From assembly GCF_036373705.1 (NCBI RefSeq), contig NC_089856.1, positions 29,670,298 to 29,734,297 on the forward strand: 64,000 nt of DNA, written 5' to 3'. Shown here piece by piece: positions 34,401 through 55,007 of this stretch. The translations under genes were made by a program, and so were the position numbers. Below the pieces are notes generated by a model that was given only the letters and a program-made list of their open reading frames with translations, had not been told where the DNA came from and did no database searches. The DNA comes from Amia ocellicauda (Eukaryota; Chordata; Actinopteri; Amiiformes; Amiidae). Position 1 is the first letter of the stretch; each line of letters begins with the position of its first letter.

Positions 34401-37400
34401 GTGTGTACAGTACCCCGAGAGCCTGCGCATTCAGGGTGTGTGAATATAGTTATACTGTGTATGGAGTTTGTGTGAAGTGCTCTAGTGCAGCGAGGGAACG
34501 GTGAGAAGTGCCATCCTCACCTTACGCAGTTGCTCCACCAGCTCAGCCTCTTCCCCCTGGGCGGCACTGCTCTGAGGGATTCCTACCTCGACTGGCTCTG
34601 GGCGCGAGGACGCTGACTCTGCAGGCAGGAGCAAACATTAGGATAGTGAGTTACACACTAACACACTTAGAATGAAAGAGATGGATGCAGAAATGGAGAT
34701 GAACACTCACAGAGAGTGAAAGATTGACACTTAAAGTGTGAAGATAAGAGAAAATGTCACTGCAGCCCTAATTGGTGTCCCAATCAATTTATATTGTAAG
34801 TGTTGGTACACAGTGGCTAAGCAAAGCATGTGCAGAGACCAACACTACTACACCCACAGGAACTGGAATTACACACCCATCCACAAATTAAAACCACCAA
34901 TAAAACACATTCACTACACACAAAAAAGTGCATGCTGGGGCTCAGAGGTTGTGACCTCCTGACCTACCTCTCTTGGTTTCCTCTTTCTGGCTGAGGCGTA
35001 ACAGGAGGCTTTCGGGTCGGAGGGCGGAGACTCTGCAAGGGGGTTGAGCACCGGGGCTGGGGCAGGGAAGTGATTGGAGGACTGCAGGGAGACCAGAAGT
35101 GGTTGCAGTGGAAAGGCAAGGGAAGGAGCAGGGTGAGATTCACACAGACTTGGGTGAAATAGCTAATGCAGGGTGGGGCAGCACCACTGGGGAACAGTCT
35201 CACACAACCACACACTCCCCCTGCTGGCTTAGGGGCACAATGCAGACATTGTGGCCACTGGAGACTTACTATTTTAGCAAATGGCTAGATACAATGAACC
35301 CTTCATTCAAGCAGTATAAATGTAAATCTATTTGGTTTAATTAAAAAGAAAAAAGGCTGAGTCAATTAAAACAATTAGCCACATTCTAAAGTACTCTGTG
35401 ATACAAATCAGTGAATATCAAAGAGGAGGAACAAACCACCAGTCCAGAACTCTTACCTGAGGAGGGCAGATTGGAGCTGGGAGAGAGGGGGGACCGGTCA
35501 TCACTCTGGAGAGACAGGTTAGACAGCAGTTATTCACAGGGTAAAGGCTCCACAGCACACACACACTACCCTCTTGCACACAAGCAACACGCAGAGCGAG
35601 CTTTTATTTCCTGAAATAGCACTACATTTGTGTAGTTAGTACTGGGTGGTGTGCGCACCCGTGTAGGGGGGCTGTATTACCATGTAGGTCTATGTATGCA
35701 GTACTGTGGGTTTCTGTGTGCTGCTCCACAAATGGATGCAGTACCTGCAGTGGGCATAACGGGGCAGCCTCGGACATCTCAGCAACAAAAACATCGGGCG
35801 GAGAGAGAGATGCACAGCTATCATGGGACATCCCAGAGAGAGACTAAGATGCAGAAAGCCAAAGAGAAAAACGGATAGAGAGCAGTATTGCAGAGGGGGA
35901 AGGAAAGCGAGAGAGAGATAAAAGCATATAGATTGTGGAGGGAGGTTTTAGGAAATGAGAAAGGAAAGAAGAATGGGGAAATGGTGAAAGGTGGAGATAA
36001 AGCATTGACAGACGATAAAACAAAACAAACAAACAGGATTCAAAGAGGGGATGAGAGAAAGGAAGAGAGGGAAGAAAAGGTGTTAGTGTCAGTGGTTAGG
36101 TATTGCACAGCAGCACAGTTGCAGTAACAGCAGCAGGTTGTGGTGGTAAAGGCTTCAGTGGGAGGCTGTGACACTCATCACTCAGAGACCAGGCAGGACT
36201 GTGGAAGGCATGCACAGACACGGCTACGCCGGCCCGATCTCTCTGTCCAGGCAGTGGGTGTGTGAATGGTGTGTGTGCTCTCAGTGAGAGTACAGGCAGT
36301 GCGCGTGGTGACTGCAGAGGCATTGCGAACGTGTTGTCCGTGTGCAGACAGTGAGTGTGTTTATGTTGTCTGTTGAGCACCATCACTGTGTGTGCTGGGA
36401 ACTGTTGAGTACAGGCAGTGAATGGGTTTGAGGTGTCTACTGAGCACCATCACTGTGTGCTGTGACTGCTGAGTACAGGCAGTGAATGTATGTGCGACCA
36501 ATGGGAGCACATGCAGGGGTGGGTACAGGCAGAGTCTCAGTCACCTGTTTGTGGGTGCCCGGTCTCCTCTTAATGGTGTTGGTGTTATTGTCTATTTCAA
36601 ACACCATAAGCGGCTGATAGCCGTTCTGCACAGTCCAGGACAGAAGGAAAAACAGACAGACAGACAGGCAAAATAGTGACAGAGAGAGTGACAGAGAAAA
36701 AGAGAAAGAAGCTCTCAGAAGCAGCACACACTGCAGGCAGATTAATTAACAGCAGATCGGGCAGTGGAGCTCTTACATCATCAGCCAGGCCAGCTTGGAT
36801 TGATTAGTGCTGATTAGTACAGAGGCAGATCAAAAACAGAGATCTATTGCTAACACACTGAAGGAAAGTTATTGACCCCCCACACCCCACCAAAGCCATG
36901 CAATGAGTTTGTTCAGGGGTAACCACAAAACAACATAATCAATATCAAAAACAAACAATTGCACAGTGAAAAGAACATTCCTGTCTAGGCTCATAACCTC
37001 GGGCAGGGCTGTGTGTTGAGCAGGGTGTCGAGTCATGTGTTGGAGAGCACTGTACAAACTGAAGAAATGCTGACCACGAACTCAATAATCCTTGCAAAGT
37101 GACTTGTAAACTTGCAAATATTGGTCAATATTCCCCAGTCCTCAAACGCAGATGGGTGATAAGAGGAGGTTACAAACCTTTAGAACATGATCAAACACAC
37201 AGTTCTTTCAGTGCCACCGAGGACAAACTGCCTACTCCACCATTAATTCATTGAAGAGTAATGTAAAAATCAGGCCCATACAGTCTCCCTGACACAGCAA
37301 CACACACAGAGTCAGGATAGTGGGGTAAAACGTCAGCACGAGGCAGTGTCCTGCACTATACATCAGACTGATTATGCAAAATAATAAGAAGAGAGGGAAA

Positions 37401-40400
37401 GGGAGGTAAGGGGAGAGAGACCGAGGTAAAAAAAATAAATCACATGTAAAGAATGGGACAGGGTGAGGGCAGAGACCAGGAAGGGAGGGGGGCATGCACA
37501 GTGCATGCAGCCAGATAGTCCAACACTCCAGACAGGCAGAGAGACAGACTGAGCAACTACAGAACTGCCACTACAATCCAACACTCCTGCCTCCATTAGT
37601 GACAGCCAGGCAGATGGACAAAACAGCAATGGATTCCTTGCACTTGTACTACACTGAAACGTAATACACACAGCACTAGAATACATTTTACAATATGGCA
37701 TTGAGCTGATATCTACTGACATGTACTCTATTGTACTGCACTCTATTGGGTCATCTGAAGTAGCCCCCAAACATCACACTCCACATGTTTCTGTCTGTCA
37801 CTGACACTCCCTTCAGTATCTTTCAGAATAACACCTTTTGTATATATGTTTCACTTCTCCATTTTATTTCACCTCTTACAGGAGAGCTCTGACCTATGGT
37901 ATGGTGCTACACACAGGACTGAAAAAAAAGTATAGATGTACACTAATAATACTATTAATTGTTTTGTCATATTCCCTGTATCTACTGACACCAGATTCTA
38001 CCAGGCAGATTAATCAAATCAATCGTTTTCTTGCACACTTACTATGAGTGTGTTACTACAGACAGACAGACTATAGGCTGTGAGGGATGCTGACTGAAAT
38101 TGATTGGTTATTGATTGGCTGGGGTGGGGTGGGGTGGGGGGTGTCACTCCGTGCAGACTGGCTCTTACCATGAAGAGGGCGGAGTCATCCGTGTGAGTGG
38201 AGCGTCTGGAAGGGAACGGGCTCTGGGGGGGAGCGGGAGACGGAGTGAAGTCAGACAGACAGAGAAGGAGTGAGAGATGGACAGGTGGACAAACAGGGGA
38301 GGTGGAACAGGTAGGCAGGCAGGTTTGCAGGCAGGAGAGGCTGGAGTGCCTCATATAGTGCCATATTCATAAAGCATCTATCAGTTCTGTAACATGGGAA
38401 TGTTCTAAGGATTGTGGAGCTATACACGGCAGAACAAACTGTACTGGAGCACAAGGCTTTGAATGTGATACTGGTAATTCAGATTAGTTCCTCATCAGAA
38501 AACAACACAAAAGAGTTACAAAGTATCACATCAGTCTTCCAAAATGTTCATTTCAAAGTCCCTGCGTCCATTTTGACCTAATCTGTCTTAAATGTTGTTT
38601 CATTTGATGTTTGGTTTCTATTTCACGAAAAACTTGTCAAAGACAGCGTGCTGTATGAATATGGCCAACAGATCAACAAAACACCTGTACCCCAGATGTA
38701 ATCCTTCAAACAGGAGTCAATAAAAAAAACAATAACCTCCTCACTGGCCAGGCAGCGAGGACCGGTCTAAACAGTACACTACACTCTGTAATGCTGAAAC
38801 AGGGAATGAGGTATCTGATGCTTCAGAAAAAAAAAAACTATTACTGTATGACCAGGTGTCAGCCTGAGCAAATAAATGCTCTGCATGCTTTGAGAATGGT
38901 TATTAAGGTTTATAACATCGAGCTACTAACTTCATACCCAAAACAGACACCAGGGAGAGAGAGAAGGGGGGAGATTGAGACAGGATTGAGCAGAAGAACT
39001 GTCCTTGGGGATCCTTCAGGAAATAATTCAGTGAGATTTTGGGGATAAACAAACTACTGGGCAACTGCTTCAGCCATCACTAATCTGTTGGGAGGTCAAA
39101 AGAAACCAGGGTTTTCTAGTTGACTGTGCAAGTCACTTTGACCTCAAGAAAGACTCAAAACAACCACTGAACATTCATTGCATCCAGGATCAAGCTCAAG
39201 TGTCTACTGTACTCCCATTCCTCTCTTCTTCTTGCACATATTTTTCAACAAGTGTTCTCCTATGTACATTGAAAAAAATATGATTAAAAAGAGAAAAAAA
39301 GAGAGAAACATACATACAATTAGAGTACACAGAGCACAGAATAACTCACCTCACTGTCGGTGGGGCTGTGCTTCGTGGGGCTTGTTGCTTTGTGCTGAAT
39401 AAAGAAAAGAATGACAGTTAAACTCATACATGTATTATGCACAGTACCATAACAAATTAATTTGTGCCCCAGTGTGTGTTTTTAGGTATGCTGGTATCCT
39501 CTTCCTTAAGTTTCAACTATCTGGACATTTTCTTATCGAGTGGTTCTCAATCCTGGAGTAATACTGACCCTGCTGGTTTTTGTTCCAACTGAGCTATCAA
39601 TTGCTTAATTGAACCCTTAATTGAAGTAATTTAATTACATTTGAATCTTTAAATTGTCTAACTGATAAAAAGTTGGTTCTTTAATAAGAATTTCCTTATA
39701 CAATTACAGTGAGGGAAAAAAGTATTTGATGCCCTGCTGATTTTGTACGTTTGCCCACTGACAAAGTAAACTTTTTCAACATACACTGCTTTTATTCACT
39801 GTACTTTTTTATTTCAATAAACTTTACTATTTATATTTAGCCTGCATACCTGACAGCTCAGGACAGTCCACGTTTCTCCACTTTCTCTGCATGAGCTCAT
39901 ACCTCACACTGCATTTTGACAGCTCTCTCCAGGTGAACACTTTTACTTCACGAAAATATAGCATTGCAATAAATGCTCCTCCGCTGATAATGTCCATGAA
40001 TCATTATTTTTCATGCAATGTGCCTGCGCTATTGCACTCTGTACTATGTGCAGTAGCAATCACGTATTGATCAGTAGAGTAAATGCACTCGGTGCCACTC
40101 GCAAAGTTTTCACACCACTGGCACAAACCCATGAATGATCTGTCATTCCCGGTATCACTGATAGCCCTGAATCAGTCATGTTCACATAGACGGCATTTCC
40201 AAAACAAGCTTTCTTCAGTCTTCGTTTCAAATTCATGTTTATTTGTGGGGTAATCACTGTATCCACTCAATCTGAGTACAGCTGTAAGAAAACACCTGTA
40301 ATGCTGTACAACGCCTGTGTTTTTCAAGCACATGACGGACTGTAGACAGGTAGAAATCACCACTTGAGCGCCAGACTGACTGTATTGTAAAGGGAAGGCA

Positions 40401-43400
40401 GGATTATACATTTGATTTGATTTATTATTTATATGTACCCGATTTTGGCTATTCTAGGTAAATGTATTTATAACTTATTTATTTTAGCATTTATGCAGCT
40501 AAAACACCGTAGGCATGTTTAATACATATATTTAGGAAAAGTCAGGAATGGGTATGCGCAGTGTATTTAGGAACACAGAGTAATTCAAATTTTAATAACC
40601 AAATTGGTCAAATTGAACGGCTTGGCACTAATTGAACCCTAAATTGAAGTAATAATTTACTAAATGAGAGCCTTTTAATTGTTTAACTGTAGGGGTTCTA
40701 AGTTAAGTATATACAGTGGGGGAAGAAAATATTTGATCCCCTGCTGATTTTGTACGTTTGCCCACTGACAAAGAAATGATCAGTCTATCATTTTAATGGT
40801 AGGTGTATTTTAATAGTGAGAGACAGAATAACAGCAAAAAAATCCAGAAAAACGCATTTCAAAAAAGTTATAAATTGATTTGCATGTTAATGAGGGAAAA
40901 AGTATTTGACCCCTTCGACTTAGTACTTGGTGGCAAAACCCTTGTTGGCAATCACAGAGGTCAGACGTTTCTTGTAGTTGGCCACCAGGTTTGCACACAT
41001 CTCAGGAGGGATTTTGTCCCACTCCTCTTTGCAGATCCTCTCCAAGTCATTAAGGTTTCGAGGCTGACATTTGGCAACTCGAACCTTCAGCTCCCTCCAC
41101 AGATTTTCTATGGGATTAAAGTCTGGAGACTGGCTAGGCCACTCTAGGACCTTAATGTGCTTCTTCTTGAGCCACTCCTTTGTTGCCTTGGCTGTGTGTT
41201 TTGGGTCATTGTCATGCTGGAATACCCACCCACGACCCATTTTCAATGCCCTGGCTGAGGGAAGGAGGTTCTCACCCAAGATTTGATGGTACATGGCCCC
41301 ATCCATCGACCCTTTGATGCGGTGCAGTTGTCCTGTCCCCTTAGCAGAAAAACACCCCCAAAGCATAATGTTTCCACCTCCATGTTTGACGGTGGGGATG
41401 GTGTTCTTGGGGTCATTCCTCCTCCTCCAAACACGGCGAGTTGAGTTGAGTTGATGTCAAAGAGCTTGATTTTGGTCTCATCTGACCACAACACTTTCAC
41501 CCAGTTCTCCTCTGAATCATTCAGATGTACAGGCCCGTCTGAAGTTTGCCAATGAACATGTGCTTTCTTGAGCAGGGGGACCTGCAGGGCGCTGCAGAAT
41601 TTCAGTCCTTCACGGCATAGTGTGTTACCAATTGTTTTCTTGGTGACTATGGTCCCAGCTGCCTTGAGATCATTAACAAGATCCTCCCGTGTAGTTCTGG
41701 GCTGATTCCTCACTGTTCTCATGATCATTGAAACTCCACGAGGTGAGATCTTGCATGGAGCCCCAGACCGAGGGAGACTGACAGTTATTTTGTGTTTCTT
41801 CCATAATCGCACCAACTGTTGTCACCTTCTCACCAAGCTGCTTGGCGATGGTCTTGTAGCCCATTCCAGCCTTGTGTAGGTCTACAATCTTGTCCCTGAC
41901 ATCCTTGGACAGCTCTTTGGTCTTGGTCATGGTGGAGAGTTTGGAATCTGATTGATTGATAGCTTCTGTGGACAGGTGTCTTTTATACAGGTAACGAGCT
42001 GAGATTAGGAGCACTCCCTTTAAGAGAGTGCTCCTAATCTCAGCTCGTTACCTGTATAAAAGACACCTGGGAGCCAGAAATCTTGCTGATTGATAGGGGA
42101 TCAAATACTTATTTCCCTTATTAACATGCAAATCAATTTATAACTTTTTTGAAATGCGTTTTTCTGGATTTTTTTGCTGTTATTCTGTCTCTCACTGTTA
42201 AAATACACCTACCATTAAAATGATAGACTGATCATTTCTTTGTCAGTGGGCAAACGTACAAAATCAGCAGGGGATCAAATATTTTCTTCCCCCACTGTAT
42301 ATACTTAACTTAGAACCCCTACAGTTAAACAATTAAAAGGCTCTCATTTAGTAAATTATTACTTCAATTTAGGGTTCAATTAGTGCCAAGCCGTTCAATT
42401 TGACCAATTTGGTTATTAAAATTTGAATTACTCTGTGTTCCTAAATACACTGCGCATACCCATTCCTGACTTTTCCTAAATATATGTATTAAACATGCCT
42501 ACGGCGTTTTAGCCGCATAAATGCTAAAATAAATAAGTTATAAATACATTTACCTAGAATAGCCAAAATCGGGTACATATAAATAATAAATCAAATCAAA
42601 TGTATAATCCTGCCTTCCCTTTACAATACAGTCAGTCTGGTGCTCAAGTGGTGATTTCTACCTGTCTACAGTCCGTCATGTGCTTGAAAAACACAGGCAT
42701 TGTACAGCATTACAGGTGTTTTCTTACAGCTGTACTCAGATTGAGTGGATACAGTGATTACCCCACAAATAAACATGAATTTGAAACGAAGACTGAAGAA
42801 AGCTTGTTTTGGAAATGCCGTCTATGTGAACATGACTGATTCAGGGCTATCAGTGATACCGGGAATGACAGATCATTCATGGGTTTGTGCCAGTGGTGTG
42901 AAAACTTTGCGAGTGGCACCGAGTGCATTTACTCTACTGATCAATACGTGATTGCTACTGCACATAGTACAGAGTGCAATAGCGCAGGCACATTTCATGA
43001 AAAATAATGATTCATGGACATTATCAGCGGAGGAGCATTTATTGCAATGCTATATTTTCGTGAAGTAAAAGTGTTCACCTGGAGAGAGCTGTCAAAATGC
43101 AGTGTGAGGTATGAGCTCATGCAGAGAAAGTGGAGAAACGTGTCCTGTGTGGACTGTCCTGAGCTGTCAGGTATGCAGGCTAAATATAAATAGTAAAGTT
43201 TATTGAAATAAAAAAGTACAGTGAATAAAAGCAGTGTATGTTGAAAAAGTTTACACGATGTTGAAAAAGTTTACTTTAGTGTACAATTATGTTTTGATAA
43301 ATGCAATAGTTATTTTTGAACTATAAAATATTGCTTTTGAGCATTATTCCAATATTTACATTTACACTTGTTTCATTCTCTTATTGTATGCCGATTTTCG

Positions 43401-46400
43401 AGCTTTTTGCTTATTGTAGGCCATATAGTTATTCATGTTTTGACTGCAGTGTGTACGTTTAGAAAAAAGTGTGTTGTTTTTTATAGCAATAATAATAATA
43501 ATGTTTAATGGTCATATTTCAAGTTAAATACTACATTTGTGCTATGTAAATGTTGGATTTGAAGTTCATGAATAAAACTTCTGAGTTTTATATGATGGTT
43601 TGCCTTTGACTGTCATATTGCAGTTGTTAAAAGAGCTATCGGTTACAATGACCGGCTTTGGCGCTTGTAGGTAGTTCGAAGTAGTGTCGGTGCTTCTAGT
43701 GTTAAGTAATTGAGAGCTCAGTTTGAACAAAAAACAGCAAGGTCAGTGTTCTGCCAGGACCAGGATTAAGATCCACTGTTCTAATCTTGACTATTTCCAA
43801 CTGCTGGCTCCTCTCCTCCTGCTCAGCCCTGGCTCTCCTCCATTCTACCCCCTGACCCCAACAAGCATCTATCGCATCAGTGTTTGTGCGCTATGTCCAC
43901 AGCAGCAGAGTGTTGTCTGACCTTGACGTAGCTGAGCACAGCCTCTCTCTGCAAGTGTCGGGCTCTCTGCCTCTCCTCCTCGTACTGCTGGGCTGCCAGC
44001 TGGGCCTCCCGCCGCATGCGCTCCACACCCCCAGACACCCGCTGGGAATAGAGAAGATCAATAGACAGAGGGGTAGGTGTTTATATTCAACAGCGTCATA
44101 TAAAAATAAACATGCACACACACACACATACAATCAGCATAGAAGTACCTGGCTTTGAGCAGAAGAGAGCGACGTACTGCCACTGTCCAGGAGGTTCCTG
44201 TAGGACAGAGAGCAGGGGAGGGGAGGTTAGGCTGGGGCCTGAAGACGTAAGGGTTTTCCATATGGAGTATATAGTGTGCTGTGTGTATACAGTGTGCTGT
44301 ACCTGCTGTGTAGTGCGAGGTGTCTCCGAGGGTCATCTGTCCGTGCCGAGTCCCTGGAGGGGCTAGACTTCACTGGAGAACCCTGGAACCAGACAGGCAC
44401 CCGTCAGTGTCTCTCTCCCTGCTTCACTCTCAAACTTCTCGCCTCATTCCCCTAGTCAGCCTTCTGTCCCACATGCCTTCCAATGGCCTTTTCCCTAACT
44501 CTCCCTTTGTCACAACCTCTCTTCTTCCCTCCCTCCCCCTCACCCAGCTCTCAACCTGCCCATCTTACCTCTTTGGTGATCCTCTTTTCTATGTAAGCCA
44601 TGAACTGTGTGCTGAGGCTGGCTGGCTCTGCCGCCCGGTGCCGAGACTCCTCCTCTTCCTCCTCGCCTGTGCAGCTGTCAATAAAGTCAATCTGTTCCAG
44701 CTCTGCTTCCACTGAGGGGCAGATAGACACAGAGAAGTGTCAGCGAAACAGGCAGACACACCAATCAGAAAGCCACAGAAACACAAATCTCTCCATCTCC
44801 CTCTCTCTTTATCTCTCTCACCTGTGCCATTGGAAACCAGTGCCCCAGTCCTACTCTCCTCCCTTTCCCTCTCTCTCTCTCTCCGCTGTCTCTGCTCCTT
44901 TGTGATCTCTGCCACTCGTAAAGGAAGATCTGACAATTCATCTGTGGGCTGGGGGGAGAGAGAGGACATGGGAGAGGGGGTAGAGGAGGACATGATGGTT
45001 GGAAGAAAGAAGGGAGATGAGTGAGAGGATACAGAAAGAAAGGGAGAGAAGGAAAAGTAGGGAGAGGGAAAGACAGGATGTGGAGAGGAAAGGGTGAATA
45101 GGAGGATGCAACAAGAATGAGGGGGGGATAGAGGGAAAAGGAGAGGAGTAGGGAGAGTGAAGGGGAAAAACAGGATATATAAGGAATAGGACAGAGAAAG
45201 AGGGGAGAGAGTGGAGAGAAGGGTGAGTTTATTATCTTGATTTGTAAAACTGGGAGTGAAAATCTCAGTGTGTCCGGTTTTATACATGACGTGATACAAC
45301 TACAGACAGTGTTTATAAAGAGAAATATTTAGTGTTGCAGCACTACCCCCTCACCTCATTGCCCGACCACCTCTTGTCCCCGCTGTCCACACTGTTGAAT
45401 CCCGAATCCAGCGCCCCATATGACCGGCCAGGATACAGCTCCTCCACACTGAGGGAGAAGCAATGTGAAGGAAGAGGTGAGGAAGGAACAAGAAAGAGGT
45501 GAATGAGTGAGATGGGGAGAGGGACAGGAAGGAAGAGAATCAGTGGGAGGTCTCCAAAAAATAGAATACCTTGTTTGCACGCTTGTGCGTGGGCGAGGGA
45601 GTGAGGGAGTGTAGTTGCAGGCATCCTAGTCTGTAACCTGACACTCTAGGAGGGAATACAGCCTTCGCACGGCTGCTGGACCACACCTCACAGGCTGTGC
45701 CGGCCTGTCAATCCTCCCTCCCTCCCTCCCTCCCTCTAGTTGTCTGGGCTCACACTTCTGGCCCTTCCTTTTTTGTCGTAGTTTATTTTCCTTCCGTCTA
45801 TACCTGTAGATTTCCAACTCTGTCTGTCTGTCTGTGCCTGTTCCTCCCTCACCCCCTCCGTCTCTCACATCCTCAGAAACTCCGGTACAGTGAGAGAGAC
45901 CCTGTTATTACCCCCCCTCCCCCTCTCCAGCTGTCTCAGTGTGGCACAGCTGTTTCCAGCATGCCCTCTCTTTCATTAGGAGACTGTGGCAGAGACAGAG
46001 GGGTGGGTGTGGGGAGAGTGTCTTTTTCCATTTGTGCAGTGTGTGTATACAGCACACATTTACACATGTGCACACGGTGTCGTTGCCTTGGACACTGTAC
46101 AGTGTGCGCGCACGGACTGGCATGTGCAAATGTGTGTAGTTTCAAGGTTGGAAGGTCCAAGTTCTGAAAAGTCAGACAAGAGACCTGCTGCCTCCTCCCT
46201 GGGTGCTCAGCCTATGAGGGACGGAGATAATCGTGCAGGACAGGTTGCCTTGGTGCTGGGAGACCTGGCCCCACTGTCTAAGATTGCTGTTGCTCCCACA
46301 GTGTAAACAGACTCTCAAGCAAGGGCTCGTATGTAATTGATTCTACTCCTCTAGTACTGTGCAGGGGCGGGGGCTGCCTGAGTGTGTACAGTGCATGATG

Positions 46401-49400
46401 AGGCGTCTCACCAGGAGCCGAAGCCCAGGGGCCGGCGGTCGAAGTCAGGCAACTCGGGCACAGTCTTACACGCCTCTATGTTCAGAAATTTGAATATATG
46501 GATCTTCCCCTTAATACAGATCTGAAGGAGAGGGAAAGACAAAAGCAATGTTATCACAATAAAGAATCAGGGTGGACAGAAAGGGGCGAGTGTTGGTCAG
46601 TGCTGGCCTTACCTGCGCAGGGGGGCACTGTAGTGGGTTGTTGTCCAGGACAATGCTCTGTAGGTGCCTCAGGTTGCGGTAACACACCGGGATGGTCGTC
46701 ACCTTGTTGCAGGAGAAGTCGAGCCGCACCAGGGGCAGCTCTGCCAGCTCTGCATACACAGCACAGCGAGGGTAAACATGCAGCACATCATAGAGGGCAC
46801 TACAATACACAGCACTGTGGTACAGTACAGTGCAATGATTGCTAACTATTTTAAGTGAATCAAAATTGGGATACATTTTGGTCCAGGCTAGGGTTAGAGT
46901 CCCCAGTAAACTTAGGCTTTCAAGTGAAGGACAATACAGAAGAGAGTGTAGTATAGTCATGTGCCCATAGTACGGTACATTTCAGTACCACACAGCAGAG
47001 AGTTCAGAGCTCTGACCTGGGGGAAGCCGGGCCAGGTGGTTCCTGCGGATGTTGAGGTCCCGGAGCACCTCCAGCTGGCCCATTTGAGGAGGCAGAGTCT
47101 GGATCTCATTGCAGCTGACATCCTGAGACATGGGCAGAGAGACACAGAGGGTAGACATCAGACACCGAGAAGCACAGTACATGTACAGTATTGTACATGT
47201 ATGTGACGTACAGTACAATAAATTATTCATTCAATATAGTACATATTAGTTCAGTCTACAAATTATATTATGGTATGGTATATAAACAGCTTGAAGTAGT
47301 ATCGTGATGCATGTTGTGTAGTATAGCATATGGTACGTAGCATAGTAATGAACATACAATGTAACACAAAGACTCACCAGCTCTGTGAGTTGCCGGAGCT
47401 GGCCAATCTCCTCTGGCAGAGACACCAGCTTGTTGTTGCAGGCAATCAGCACCTTCAGGGGCAGACTACAAACTGGAGCCGGCAGTGTGGAAAGCTGGTT
47501 ACGACTGGGAGAGAGGAAAGACAGAGAACAATTAATGGTGGGAGGTTGAAAGACATTGGGGGCCAGATATAGAGAGAGGAAGGGAGAACAACAGACCCAA
47601 CTGAGCAAAAATCCTAGACAGAGTCTGGAGCCACTATGTGGCAGTGCACCACCAGGTTAACTCCAGCACTGGGCATTCAAACAGCAAGGATAAAACACAT
47701 CTGTAGTAATGGTATACATAAGCACACCTGTCCCTCTGACACTCAGAAGTCGATGATCTCGGTGGCTCTGGTTTAACTGATGCTCGGGTACATAACTGGT
47801 GTACTGCCTTGGGTCTCTGGTGCCATTAGGCAGCAGTCTAAGCCAAAGCTCAGGATGTGATGGAGGAGCAGTCCTACCTGATGTTGAGGTACGTAAGGGC
47901 CTGCAAGTTGAGCATGGTCTCAGGCAGAGTGCGGATGCAGTTCTGGTACAGGTTCAAGCTCTCCAGCGACACAAACAGACACACCTCAATGGGCAGCTCT
48001 GACAGTCGGTTTCGTGATAAATCTGTCAGAAACATAGGGGAAATGGTGAGACAATGAACCTGCCTGATACTTTCTAACCGTACACACTATATACATTACC
48101 GGTCAAAATGTTTTATTGAAATTTGCGCAGTTTAATGTCTCAATGTACTCTGAAATTAAAGCACAGAACAAATAAACAATTGGAGATCAAAAATAAATCA
48201 TTTTGTTTAAAAACAAGTAACCCCTTCAGCTGACAAACCCCTATGGTACCCTTAAAAGGGCACCAAATGCATGTGCTTCTCTTTAATCCGATGTGTACTC
48301 TTCAATGTTGTGTTTGCCAAGTGTTTAAAAACAGAGAACACTATAAGCGATACAGCCTGACGTGGAAAGGACTTTGTGTCTATTTTATTCTTTGTGCTTT
48401 ACATGATTGTAAACAGCGTAATAAATACACGTTTCTGTTAAGAGATATTAGGAAGAGCTAAACGTGTATAGACAACATTATATTCAGACAAGCACGTCCC
48501 CATAAGAATACGTTTCCATGCTCAACAATAACACTAAATAGCAAATATGTATTGTTATTATTATCATCATCATTTGTGCTAGTATATATGTATTTTAAAC
48601 GGCACAGCGTGACTCCCTTAATTTATTACTCTTACTACAGAATTATAACTGCAAACAATACTTTTTGCCGTATTATTTATAATTTACTTAACAGATGTCC
48701 TCAACCAGGGCAAGTTACAGTTGAAACAAAATACACACGTTACACAATTAATCATCCAGCTACAGTATAGCAGGTTATAATTTAATTAAAGTGTGCGCGT
48801 CTCAGTCATGGCGTGTATGGACGCATTTATTAAACCAGTCCTTATGTTTTAGAGGAAACCCAGATCTGCTGTATTTATTTATTCATTAATTTAACTTGTA
48901 AATGGTCACACGTTAACTAAATTGTGACCGCCTTCACACTGACTGTCTCTGCGGATTGTGCTGCACGCCATTCACAAAACACAGCCTGAAACAACATCCA
49001 GTTATTCATAAAATATTAAGAATATCGGCTGCTACCGATCTGATTATTATCCTTCAGTTTATTTTTAACTAGTCACAGCATTGCACCGGTCCTGTGAAAT
49101 CCAAGTTTTTAATGCACTCGGATATTAACCGTAAGCAGTCATTGTTTCTGTATGTGGATTTCACTCCATGCTGCTAATAAACTTGTAATTTCTTCGTGAT
49201 CACACACGGCACTTGAGATTATATCTTCCAACACAATGCACCTGATCTCTTCCCTGTCTGTCTCAAGTCCAGTGCACACCTCTCTTCTGAAAGCGAATCA
49301 AGTCCTCAGTGGGCGGGACGGACGCTTATGGACACGTCTAGCACCAGATTGTTAACCGTCCACAAAACACGGATGCTTCCAGACGCTTAGCCAGTGTAAA

Positions 49401-52400: not shown

Positions 52401-54835
52401 ATTTATATAGGTTTGAAAATTGAGTGTAATAAGAGCAGTGTAGTTGTCAAATTGATTAACTGCTATGGTTATTTACAGTATAGAAGACCAATATGCAGAA
52501 CGTATTCAATGCATTTAATTTCCTGGGTTTTATATAATAGCTAGTTGTTTTAATACTGATGTCTGTTTCTCTATGTATTGTTATAGAACTACATAGTTCT
52601 CTTTTTTTGGTGTGTGTTCCTGTTTACTTTGTAATAAAGGTTTTAAAAAAAAAATACATACATAAATAAATGGTCTAATAAACAGCCTTGGATAAAACAT
52701 TTTGTTTAAAGGCTGTCATTCAAAGGACAATAATAATACATCCCAATATCTCTGCACAACCCCCCCACCCCCTTCTCTTACAGCAAGACAGGGGGCCTGT
52801 GCTGTAGTGTGGCACCCACGGTTTGCAGACAGAGACCCAGCGATGACAACGCGCTCCAGTTACTCCTTGAGCACAGCGGACTGACAGAGAGCAGCACAGC
52901 GCCCGGAGCGCGCTGCAGCCACACTACACTGGCACACCAGCCAGGCACTGGAGTCTCATGACTGGCTGATAAAGTATTACATACCATGACATCTCTCTCA
53001 GTTTACCCATTTGCTGTCATGTCCTATGTGCTTTCTTGCAAGATACTGTGGTGCGGAGTGCACTTTTGTAATTATTTAAATACATAATGCAAATGCATGT
53101 GTCTGAAGAATTTCATTTTGAGCAGTGTCACTTTTCTTTTTTAAGTACCAGATTAGAAGAGAGGTCTAGAAAGAGTTTAGTACGTGGCCCAAAGCCCTTT
53201 AACCCACCAATTGCAGACAGCTGCACAACACCGATACAGTACTTGGTTAAGGATTTCATTTATATATTACAAAAAAAAAGTTATACTTCTTAGCAGATGC
53301 CATTATCCAGGGCTACTAACAATTGTTACAATATATCATATTGTAAGCACTGTGCAAGTTATACTTCATTGATCTTGATTTTTAAAAAGGTCACAAAAGA
53401 AGTGAGGGCAATTGGTAATGTTCGTCTGATTTCTAGCAGCAACAGCTTTTAAAAACAGAATAGTGGGAAACAGCTGTCAATCTGATGGATTCCAAGACAT
53501 AGCCCATATATTTAAAAATCTATTATATGTGCATGTACATACTTCTTTTAAACATCACTGTCCCTTTCTCTCACAGACTGTGGGTCTATTTATAAAGTGG
53601 AAGACAGGATTAGGACAGCATAAAGTTGATCAATTGTCTATGTCTGTCTGAACTAAACACACACCACTGACCTAAATTCAGTGGAAAGCTCATGACCATT
53701 AAAAAAAATTAAGAAGAAAAAGAAAATCAAAGGGAATAAGTCTGATCTAAAACTGTCCACAATTTGATAACCCGTCTCAAATGTCAGCATAATATGTTGA
53801 ATAAGTTATTGAAATTATAAAACATGTTTTCACTTAAACCAGTAAGATATTAATTATTAAAGATACAACAACAATTATGGTATGTCGTTCCAATAGGGGC
53901 TGTGTTGTGATCCTGGGGTTTGTAGGTAGTGTTTATACAGGCAGAGCTATCTGGACAGTCGTAACGACCAGGGGAGAGAATGAGGAGCAGGGCGGAGGTC
54001 TCGGGTTCCAGACTGCAATAAATACACTGCATCTCAAAGCAATGCATTTGTCTCTACTGTCTGTCTGTAACTGCACCCAAAGCGACACGAATGCGGCTTT
54101 GAAGAGAGAGACTTGGAACCGACACAAATACAGTCCATTGTAATCCAGTGCGTCAAAACACAACAGCAAGCATAAACAACTCAAAAGTTTACAGCGAAAC
54201 TGGTCTTTACATTTAACATACTATACTAGCTACCAGTACTGCTCTATCAATTGCCACTCACAGGTAACTAGTGAGAAGCTAATAATAAACAAGGATTTCT
54301 ACATTTCTTGCGCTTATTTGTTGTAATCTAGTTAGACGGCGGTGCACTGTTTGCAGATGGTCTCCTTTCAAAACAAGATCCCAGCTGTCTAATACAGCGG
54401 CGAGTAAACATGTCAACCCGCTCACACGCCCGTGTTTACCTCCCTGCCTCCATCTCTCCCTCTGCTAAACACGCAAACCATTCTCCTTCTCTCCACAGCC
54501 CACGTCTGCGTATGGTATTAGGGAGGGTTCGCGTTGTCTTTCTGGCCCCCTCAGCCTGCTCTCTTAGCCCCAGTCTCCCCGGCCCTTTCCCCGACCCTCG
54601 GGCGCTGCCTACCGGCCTGAGTCGTGTCTGTGAGGTCGTGGTTTGCGGCGCTCCTTGGAAATTCCTTCAGTTTCCTGCCACTCAGGTTCAGCGAGCCCGT
54701 GGCCGCCGCCTCGTCCAGGGCCCGGTCCAGCGAGCGATTCCAGGAGGCAGGACCCGCTGCTCCTGGCCCGGTACAGGCACCTCCTGTCGTTCCGGGGCCG
54801 GGGCTCTCCACCGACAGTAAGACCGCGGCCGCCAT
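28545..54835 (-). CDS. lrch3: lrch3: leucine-rich repeat and calponin-homology domain protein 3
   Basis: Minus-strand exons in one frame: 54835-54613 ([27 protein letters not shown]), 48022-47878, 47504-47378, 47122-47017, 46749-46613, 46521-46412 (the LRR block), 45448-45355 ([20 protein letters not shown]), 44948-44822, 44711-44569, 44382-44303, 44197-44149, 44041-43922, 39394-39350, 38222-38169, 36625-36545, 35506-35457, 35032-34968 ([17 protein letters not shown]), 34618-34521, 33733-33596, 32640-32563 ([18 protein letters not shown]). The last exon is either 32031-31837 or 28670-28545. The two forms are 754 and 731 residues. The protein has about nine leucine-rich repeats, a low-complexity middle and a C-terminal type-2 CH domain. 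LRCH3 joins DOCK7 and MYO6 in an actin-septin complex (family knowledge). The start is the conserved MAAA; an in-frame upstream ATG at 54967 is less likely. The 1st intron (6.6 kb) and 12th intron (4.5 kb) are transposon-rich. Confidence 0.95.
28671..31836. other. Between the two lrch3 last exons: 3' UTR of form A and intron of form B
   Basis: No further exon was seen. It contains an A run (28779-28800), a (TG)n microsatellite (31441-31483) and CA-rich tracts around 29220-29640. Polyadenylation of the membrane form must occur somewhere here. Confidence 0.55.
31441..31483 (+). repeat. (TG)n microsatellite
   Basis: About 21 uninterrupted TG units. Confidence 0.95.
31837..32031 (-). CDS. lrch3: lrch3 alternative last exon A: end of CH domain plus a transmembrane segment
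   Basis: After the TAG acceptor at 32032-32034 the frame from the CH exon continues as [15 protein letters not shown] and [12 protein letters not shown] hydrophobic segment follows ([20 protein letters not shown]), then HLVPRF and stop TGA at 31837-31839. The first part aligns with the final CH helices. The C-terminal single-span anchor with a very short tail resembles that of LRCH4 (family knowledge). Phase matches exon 32640-32563 exactly. This exon comes first in transcription order, so using it ends the protein before exon B. Confidence 0.85.
   Translation of the reverse strand, partial: DQLCSVSAVLRGEEGCVYRTLEALLSLGPSPMASPRGQIACFALFYLSIMSLLCALYCHLVPRF
32901..33512. mobile_element. Miniature DNA transposon (Harbinger-like ends), copy A, in lrch3 intron
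   Basis: The ends are inverted: TTATGCCTCGGTTCCACTGG with CTTAAG at the left, and CTTAAGCCAGTGG with AAACGGGGCATAA at the right. The 612-bp interior has no transposase. A diverged second copy is present at about 48.3-49.45 kb. TTA/TAA at the edge suggests the PIF/Harbinger group, but the class is not proven. Confidence 0.65.
33734..34520. other. lrch3 intron between the coiled-coil and CH exons
   Basis: AT-rich with a (GGTT)n run at 34077-34097. No exon seen. Confidence 0.5.
35507..36544. other. lrch3 intron, purine-rich and GTGTGAGTAC-type repeated phrases
   Basis: The part at 36280-36490 repeats the phrase GAGTACAGGCAGTGAATG with GAGCACCATCACTGTGTG at about 90-bp spacing, a short degenerate tandem repeat. 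No exon was seen. Confidence 0.5.
36626..38168. other. lrch3 intron
   Basis: No exon or clear mobile element recognised. A (GGGGT)n run lies at 38118-38139. Confidence 0.45.
38223..39349. other. lrch3 intron
   Basis: No exon or named element was recognised. The sequence is AT-rich with A runs. Confidence 0.45.
39716..39763 (+). mobile_element. Orphan Tc1 terminal fragment at the left edge of the palindrome
   Basis: GTATTTGATGCCCTGCTGAT with TTTGTACGTTTGCCCACTGA repeats the first ~48 bases of the Tc1 inverted end at 40714. It then stops abruptly and joins the palindrome arm. No partner end is present. Confidence 0.8.
40714..42297 (-). mobile_element. Tc1/mariner element with broken transposase
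   Basis: The ends are CAGTGGGGGAAGAAAATATT and its inverse, flanked by TA. Inverted repeats extend over about 210 bp on each side (40714-40926 and 42085-42297). The element is 1584 bp long, a normal full Tc1 length. Coding is leftwards. A second hairpin lies at 41973-42069. Confidence 0.92.
40920..41930 (-). pseudogene. Tc1 transposase, disrupted
   Basis: Three minus-strand frames together cover a fish Tc1 transposase. Starting from ATG at 41930, the helix-turn-helix part ([19 protein letters not shown]) is followed by [28 protein letters not shown] (first catalytic Asp), [18 protein letters not shown] (second Asp) and [15 protein letters not shown] (Glu). It ends at GFATKY and stop TAA. The frame breaks at about 41805, where roughly 8 bases are missing between GCGATTAT and GGAAGAAAC. 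It breaks again at about 41450, where AACTC is present three times. A 30-bp inverted segment lies at about 41530-41561. It cannot make a working enzyme. Confidence 0.92.
43276..43921. other. Right part of the enlarged hAT element and adjoining lrch3 intron
   Basis: Past the palindrome this stretch holds AT-rich unassigned sequence and the right end of the hAT-like element (to 43778). The remaining 143 bases are intron with a pyrimidine tract leading away from exon 44041-43922. Confidence 0.5.
48300..49448. mobile_element. Miniature DNA transposon (Harbinger-like), copy B, nested
   Basis: Long stretches match copy A at 32.9-33.5 kb: CGGCTGCTACCGATCTGATT, TATTTTTAACTAGTCAC, TTCTTCGTGATCACACACGG and the right end AGTGGAAACGGGGCATAA. 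It is longer than copy A, with extra internal sequence including an L2-type tail at 48687-48722. The left end could not be fixed. Confidence 0.6.
48687..48722 (-). mobile_element. L2-type tail, short
   Basis: TTAACAGATGTCCTCAACCA then GGGCAAGTTACAG is the inverse of the L2/SINE 3' tail also seen at 25.7 and 53.3 kb. Confidence 0.55.
49960..54612. other. lrch3 intron 1, right part
   Basis: No exon is supported. At 52790-52960 there is a GC- and CpG-richer patch (GCGCCCGGAGCGCGCTGCAG) that could be a regulatory element or an alternative first exon. The rest is AT-rich. Confidence 0.45.
53284..53350 (-). mobile_element. L2-type tail in lrch3 intron 1
   Basis: CTTCTTAGCAGATGCCATTA then TCCAGGGCTACTAACAATTG matches the inverse of the fish L2/SINE 3' tail. 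Confidence 0.6.
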
Positions 54836-55007
54836 TACACAGCTTACTCCCACTGTTTCTCTCTCTCTCTCGCTGAGACTGGACTCACTCTGCGGCTGCG
54901 CAACAACTGAGGGCAAATTAATGCCAAAGACAGGGGAGAGGCAAGTGTTGGCACTGAGCAGGCGCAATGTGGAAAGCTTGGGTTCAGGCTACAGAACATG
55001 CGCAGTG

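Follow-up and report, generated by a model that had tools for sequence, protein, structure and literature searches.

How does a transposon come to lie at the exact centre of a long palindrome? This question is raised by a 64-kb stretch of the genome of Amia ocellicauda (NC_089856.1, positions 29,670,298 to 29,734,297; hereafter the window, whose own coordinates are used throughout), in which a Tc1 element of 1,584 bp (40714-42297, minus strand) lies between two inverted flanks. The original prediction had described these flanks as nearly identical over about 950 bp and had offered two origins for them: either Tc1 had landed at the tip of a pre-existing cruciform, or a foldback event had copied one flank onto the opposite side. 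The description was confirmed, and the second origin is the one supported here. We are highly confident that the right flank was copied into the left terminal inverted repeat (TIR) of Tc1 after the element had inserted. Taken as a whole, this explanation is very probable; its likely mechanism is that a break in the left TIR was repaired off the inverted right TIR, carrying the flank along, and was then closed by end joining. We read the palindrome as a repair scar.

The palindrome and the identity of its arms

The Tc1 element is bounded by its present left TIR (40714-40916, plus strand) and by its right, or 5', TIR (42095-42297, minus strand; about 203 bp). Pfam recognized two transposase domains in separate frames (HTH_Tnp_Tc3_2, 2e-14; DDE_3, 8.6e-12), and the reading frame is not intact, the coding region being broken across several overlapping frames. 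In its Tc1-type domains, its long TIRs and its TA target duplication the element resembles other Tc1/mariner elements with long TIRs; unlike an ordinary one, it has a double left end, in which a complete TIR lies inward of a 60-bp stub. A 97-bp inverted repeat (41973-42069, 96.9% identity) lies within Tc1 near the transposase start; self-inverted matches in several related copies indicate that it is probably a family trait.

The palindrome resumes at the first base outside Tc1, with one TA on each side. The left arm (39767-40713, minus strand) is an inverted copy of the right flank and comprises 862 bp of a piggyBac-like element and 85 bp, including the TA, of a miniature inverted-repeat transposable element (MITE); it measures 948 bp if base 39766, common to the arm and the adjoining Tc1 stub, is counted in. 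The right arm (42298-43254, plus strand) measures 957 bp. The two arms differ by 5 substitutions and one 9-bp indel, an inter-arm divergence of about 0.5%, and arm plus TIR align to themselves with 98.4% identity over 1,160 columns. Set against these arm differences, the two TIRs of the element, referred to below as the central TIRs, show 2 substitutions and two 1-base gaps, all of them inward of an outer 100 bp without differences. Compared with the repeat family, the right arm carries derived bases at 42514 and 42995, the left arm is derived at 42699 and in the 9-bp deletion, and the derived arm is undecided at 42505 and 42641. Among inverted repeats with an E value below 1e-20, the window contains this palindrome and the hairpin inside Tc1 only. 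The outer limits first proposed for the palindrome, 39764 and 43275, fit a second register, in which left positions 39763-39782 pair with right positions 43258-43277 at 20 of 20 bases and one 20-bp tandem unit of the right copy is skipped; in the main register the arms extend from 39766 to 43254. The right copy of the element has two such adjacent, near-identical 20-bp units at 43238-43277 (GTTGAAAAAGTTTAC in both), where most other copies have two different forms and the left arm has a single unit.

Most of each arm belongs to a dispersed repeat. The searched genome comprised 988 Mb in 385 contigs. A search whose query was the left arm together with part of Tc1 recovered both arms, the stub and at least 39 further matches of 81-86% identity, none of which, among the matches listed, went past window position 40629. 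A second search, with the sequence to the right of the palindrome, also gave at least 39 further matches, most of them ending at about 43705, which indicates that the same dispersed element continues there. This non-autonomous element (42383-43701, plus strand) is about 1.3 kb long and nearly complete at the right side of Tc1; about 9 bases of its left end are gone in both arms. When it was aligned with 13 other copies, two of which (L044 and L045) were covered only in part, most copies showed TTAA beside inverted CACTAGAAGCGCC-type termini, with flanks that differed from copy to copy. We call the element piggyBac-like, a putative label based on its TTAA target and inverted ends.

Are the arms, then, two copies of this repeat or one copy seen twice? 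The right arm contains the first 872 bp of the element, and the remainder follows directly; the left arm ends within the element. Both arms carry the same eroded element end and the same MITE remnant, and 35 of 856 aligned columns hold a base common to both arms that is found in none of the 13 other copies. The right arm differs at 9.4-12.5% of aligned bases from the 11 well-covered copies, and at 26% and 15% from the partly covered L044 and L045. Judged from their sequence, the arms are a single element copy that was duplicated. The alternative that they are two dispersed-repeat copies thus stands as far as most of their content is concerned and fails as to their number. Sequence continuity likewise supports copying from right to left, with the right arm as the apparent donor, since the right arm is unbroken with its element and with the MITE end while the left arm stops within the element. 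The left arm as donor is ruled out by the same continuity of the right arm.

Two further candidates were rejected. A larger transposon with the arms as its ends is ruled out by the element running beyond the right arm to 43701. The palindrome as a dispersed unit is ruled out by its exact junctions, which occur in the 988 Mb only at this locus: the joint between MITE and Tc1 has two matches, one per arm, and the left breakpoint joint has one.

The original site and the order of events

What did the site look like before Tc1 arrived? Positions 39530-43786 form a single block, an old palindromic hAT-like MITE that holds the piggyBac-like element in its right half and Tc1 in its middle. It is bordered by 8-bp target-site duplications, TTCTTATC on the left (39530-39537) and TTCTAATC on the right (43779-43786), which match at 7 of 8 positions; the hAT label is putative and based on the 8-bp duplication and the inverted ends. 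The left half (39538-39706, plus strand) was the original left flank of Tc1 and ends in the TA target. The right half is in two pieces, both on the plus strand: an inner piece of 85 bp (42298-42382), which was the original right flank of Tc1, and an outer piece of 77 bp (43702-43778), which starts with TTAA. The family of 39538-39706 is dispersed and its members frequently appear with an inverted second half. When joined, the two halves here are about 77% alike, and the Tc1 insertion lies near the centre of the MITE.

The target duplication of Tc1 consists of the TA at 39705-39706 and the TA at 42298-42299. Joining the sequence up to 39706 with that from 42300 recreates an ordinary MITE centre: the joined site reads CCTTATACAATTATATACTTAACTT where typical intact copies read CCTTATACAATTTTATACTTAACTT. 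For 19 of 20 other MITE copies (hand-picked from the top rows and from rows with both halves, and so not a random sample) the best alignment of the joined site spans the Tc1 joint, crossing being counted at 20 bases; the sole exception, L058, falls short of that length. Thus, the bases that flank the joint were neighbours before Tc1 arrived and, since the MITE halves were then contiguous, the left arm was absent when Tc1 inserted. This contradicts the proposal that a cruciform was already present and received Tc1 at its tip. What survives of the cruciform idea is that Tc1 landed near the middle of an older and weaker palindrome, that of the MITE; the present one is later than Tc1.

The remnant at the far end of the left arm completes the picture. 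A 60-bp stub (39707-39766, plus strand) directly follows the TA of the left MITE half and starts with CAGT; its position is set by the MITE joint. Since it stands at this place, we take it to be the outer end of the original left TIR of this same Tc1, to which the arm and the adjoining TIR tip were added later. The foldback event, in the form of a copy from right to left, is favoured by a left arm that ends inside an element at a 60-bp fragment of Tc1.

The central TIRs bear out this order. Only 2 of 195 positions differ between them, against 4-22 in each of 28 other copies; recopying of part of one TIR from the other would lead one to expect such a low count. Both carry G12 and A16. We compared them with 57 TIRs (28 of 5' type and 29 of 3' type, two of them gapped at position 16) from 29 other Tc1 copies, in which G12 occurs once and A16 not at all. 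At these two positions the stub keeps the family states, A12 and G16; it differs from the family consensus at 1 of 60 positions and from the central TIRs at 4 of 60. Rare bases that are present in both central TIRs and absent from the stub fit a left tip recopied from the right. The inner part of the left TIR matches the 3' consensus from position 198, so the recopied part must end before that position. The body of the element also bears on timing: its 972 bp hold 8 private substitutions relative to the 29 sampled copies, and both arms together hold 5 (one-sided binomial p = 0.039, a weak value that depends on the copies sampled). With more private changes in the body than in the arms, Tc1 probably predates the palindrome by some time. 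Sequence divergence also sets this Tc1 apart together with one sampled copy, L011: both are about 3.4-3.7% from the consensus body, from which the remaining 28 sampled copies differ by 0.6-2.3%, and the two may belong to a separate subfamily.

A route for the copying and its competitors

The anatomy of the locus shows the following course. First, the palindromic hAT-like MITE inserted at the site. The piggyBac-like element then entered a TTAA in the right half of the MITE, and Tc1 a TA near the MITE centre, in either order. Later, about 1.0 kb was added within the left TIR 60 bp from its tip, composed of an inverted copy of the right flank of Tc1 (947 bp) followed by a TIR end. As the trigger of this last step we envisage a double-strand break, or an equivalent stalled end, in the left TIR at about position 60. 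Consisting of TIR sequence, the end on the side of Tc1 could have paired with the inverted and near-identical right TIR and been extended outward across the last 60 bp of that TIR, the 85-bp MITE remnant and then 862 bp within the piggyBac-like element. End joining to the opposite side of the break would have followed, with little homology or none. The tip of the old TIR would be left behind as the stub, and a new tip derived from the right TIR would lie between the left arm and the body of Tc1. With moderate confidence we favour this particular route, a single break followed by synthesis templated by the inverted TIR and by end joining. Richardson and Jasin reportedly described, in 2000, homologous repair at one end of a break coupled to end joining at the other.

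The left breakpoint (39766-39767) joins TIR position 60 (GACAAAG) to TAAACTTTTTCAAC in the interior of the piggyBac-like element. One base (G) is shared at this joint, the matching place in the right arm being also preceded by G. If the joint is measured at the outer 20-bp unit of the right copy, 4 bp (AAAG) are shared; the left arm would in that case have lost one 20-bp unit afterwards.

Several points weigh against this interpretation or limit its reach. It rests on one assembly of one individual of one species, and the mutation counts are small. The outer 60 bp show no consensus difference between 5' and 3' TIRs, so the stub is not provable as a 3' end by its sequence alone. These 60 bp are also identical between the two TIRs in 3 of 28 other copies; identity there is thus a weak argument by itself, and the shared rare bases bear the weight. 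A further base common to both central TIRs, C76, occurs in 3 of the 57 other TIRs, all of them 3' ends, and one of the three copies concerned (L017) has G12 too. Since C76 lies beyond the end of the stub at position 60, it needs either conversion past that point or an earlier origin. At the left joint, a microhomology of 1 or 4 bp may be due to chance, and, with the tip recopied, a few TIR bases could have been lost at the break without leaving a trace.

The competitor that survives best dispenses with the double-strand break. A replication fork could have switched template from the left TIR to the inverted right TIR, run outward for about 1 kb and returned near its point of departure. Its product would be identical to that of the break model, no sequence feature tells the two apart, and a return close to the departure point would come naturally to a fork. 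Template switching at inverted repeats has been described in yeast (PMC10766183) and in human inverted triplications (PMC4352052). We regard fork switching as unlikely here. Rather improbable is an abortive repair, from the sister chromatid, of the gap left by Tc1 excision. In this scheme the left end would copy 60 bp of TIR, the right end would copy the element and, switching at the TIR, continue into the flank, and the two ends would then be joined. Gap filling of this kind is known from P elements, and PMC8277862 gives it as scenario (2) for TIR elements; the Tc1 family has also been active recently (26 of the 29 copies, which were chosen by similarity, are 0.6-1.5% from the consensus body). 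The scheme would yield the product seen here; it needs more steps than a single break inside the TIR.

It is very improbable that a 950-bp palindrome was there first and that Tc1 hit its exact tip, whether by chance or through a target preference. Tc1/mariner elements prefer AT-rich palindromic TA targets, and a centre reading TTAAGTATATACTTAA would suit that preference. The perfect centre described in the original prediction does exist, in that the flanks pair from the first base outside Tc1, but it is not diagnostic of origin, since copying a flank through a TIR yields it automatically. The MITE joint places the origin of the left arm after the insertion of Tc1, and a pre-existing palindrome explains neither the Tc1 stub at the far end of that arm nor rare substitutions found in both TIRs and not in the stub. 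It would demand an earlier Tc1 at the same TA, its reduction to 60 bp and then another Tc1 insertion at precisely that base pair.

An artefact of assembly or library preparation, whether a chimeric fold-back read or a misjoin, we hold to be scarcely probable. Palindromes are difficult to assemble, and the locus is known here from the assembly; against this, comparison with the repeat family shows each arm to have derived changes not found in the other, and the left arm stops at a TIR remnant, after which come the expected MITE half and target duplication, which a simple fold-back would not restore. Finally, the abundance of the dispersed repeat in both searches might speak for its having inserted twice, independently and in opposite orientations. 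This is hardly credible given 5 substitutions between the arms where the 11 well-covered copies differ from the right arm by 9.4-12.5%, the private bases common to both, and an identical MITE remnant and eroded element end.

Relatives of the locus and its wider meaning

To what known class of event does the copied flank belong? The nearest appears to be the repair-mediated duplications of Pace et al. 2009 (PMC2671141), and the next nearest the gap-filling Pack-TIRs of Tan et al. 2021 (PMC8277862). In the former, a transposable element (TE) is interrupted by a copy of DNA from within 5 kb, which is attributed to synthesis-dependent strand annealing; joints with small or no microhomology are described, and an opposite-orientation case, involving an ACSBG2 exon, is mentioned. 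The present locus is alike in that 947 bp lie in the left TIR and the donor arm is 1.58 kb away across Tc1, within the 5-kb range. What sets it apart is its donor, the opposite flank of the same element, reached via the inverted TIR; for this reason the product is palindromic and the TIR tip duplicated. The insert of 947 bp also compares with a stated maximum of 619 bp for the proximal human set of PMC2671141. That study retained cases in which the second TE piece begins, in consensus positions, no more than 30 bp from the end of the first, a search filter and not a mechanistic criterion; here, with the tip recopied, the inner piece begins again at TIR position 1, and the filter would miss the locus.

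In gap-filling Pack-TIRs, sequence is captured between TIRs by template switching, close to its source, and is present in single copy (PMC8277862). Our locus shares template-switch capture between TIR transposon ends, closeness to the source and single-copy status. Pack-TIRs are defined by captured non-TE DNA with an unlinked source, whereas here transposons were captured, from the adjoining flank. That survey excluded parental copies that had TEs within 100 bp on either side, and its authors say that linked cases may be missed; Pack-TIR breaks are skewed inward, while the break here lies 60 bp from the end. The events in PMC10622511 and PMC10766183 are similar in that inverted repeats serve as the turning point for the inverted copying of a flank; those yeast events give hairpin-capped or dicentric chromosomes, or inverted triplications, unlike the present copy, which is shorter than 1 kb and after which the locus regains its original left flank. 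No description of a Tc1-centred palindrome of such origin was found among the listed titles and opening lines of abstracts, a search that left subscription journals mostly outside.

How often might this happen? Inverted flanks starting at both element ends were seen in none of 37 other Tc1 copies tested, namely the 29 copies chosen by similarity (flanks of 954-1,400 bp) and 8 of 14 exact TIR pairs counted by eye (flanks of 540-582 bp). Four copies (L024, L031, L079 and L081) showed short inverted matches that do not begin at both ends. The Tc1 family is very large in this genome: a 42-bp TIR core has 10,687 exact copies in the 988 Mb (5,289 in forward and 5,398 in reverse orientation). The class could therefore have many members despite the absence of a second case among the 37. 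The same core had no exact match in the viral contig and genome contig collections, and a distant blastn search of plasmids with Tc1 gave no match.

Elsewhere in the window, a tandem repeat with a period of 67 bp and 2.2 copies occupies 36345-36488. A minus-strand frame at 46511-46960 gave LRR_8 and LRR_4 matches slightly under the Pfam cut-offs; the name LRCH is presumptive. The frames at 54551-54967 and 47246-47608 had no Pfam match.

As a single case, the locus is a neat example and not a new system; what distinguishes it is the copying of an element's own far flank through an inverted TIR. It is an unusually legible record of repair, in which the MITE gives the empty site, the TIR remnant the break, and the rare shared mutations the direction of copying, and it indicates that a Tc1-centred palindrome can arise without any targeting of palindromes. 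It is conceivable, although we consider it doubtful, that the inverted TIRs of Tc1 act as a standing fold-back template, such that a break in one is repaired from the other and the far flank is copied in inverted orientation. Both published searches for captured DNA (PMC2671141, PMC8277862) would apparently miss this class. If the process is real and recurrent, it would be an overlooked source of palindromes and of chimeric transposon ends, filtered out by such searches, and would tie the origin of long palindromes to high-copy TIR transposons.

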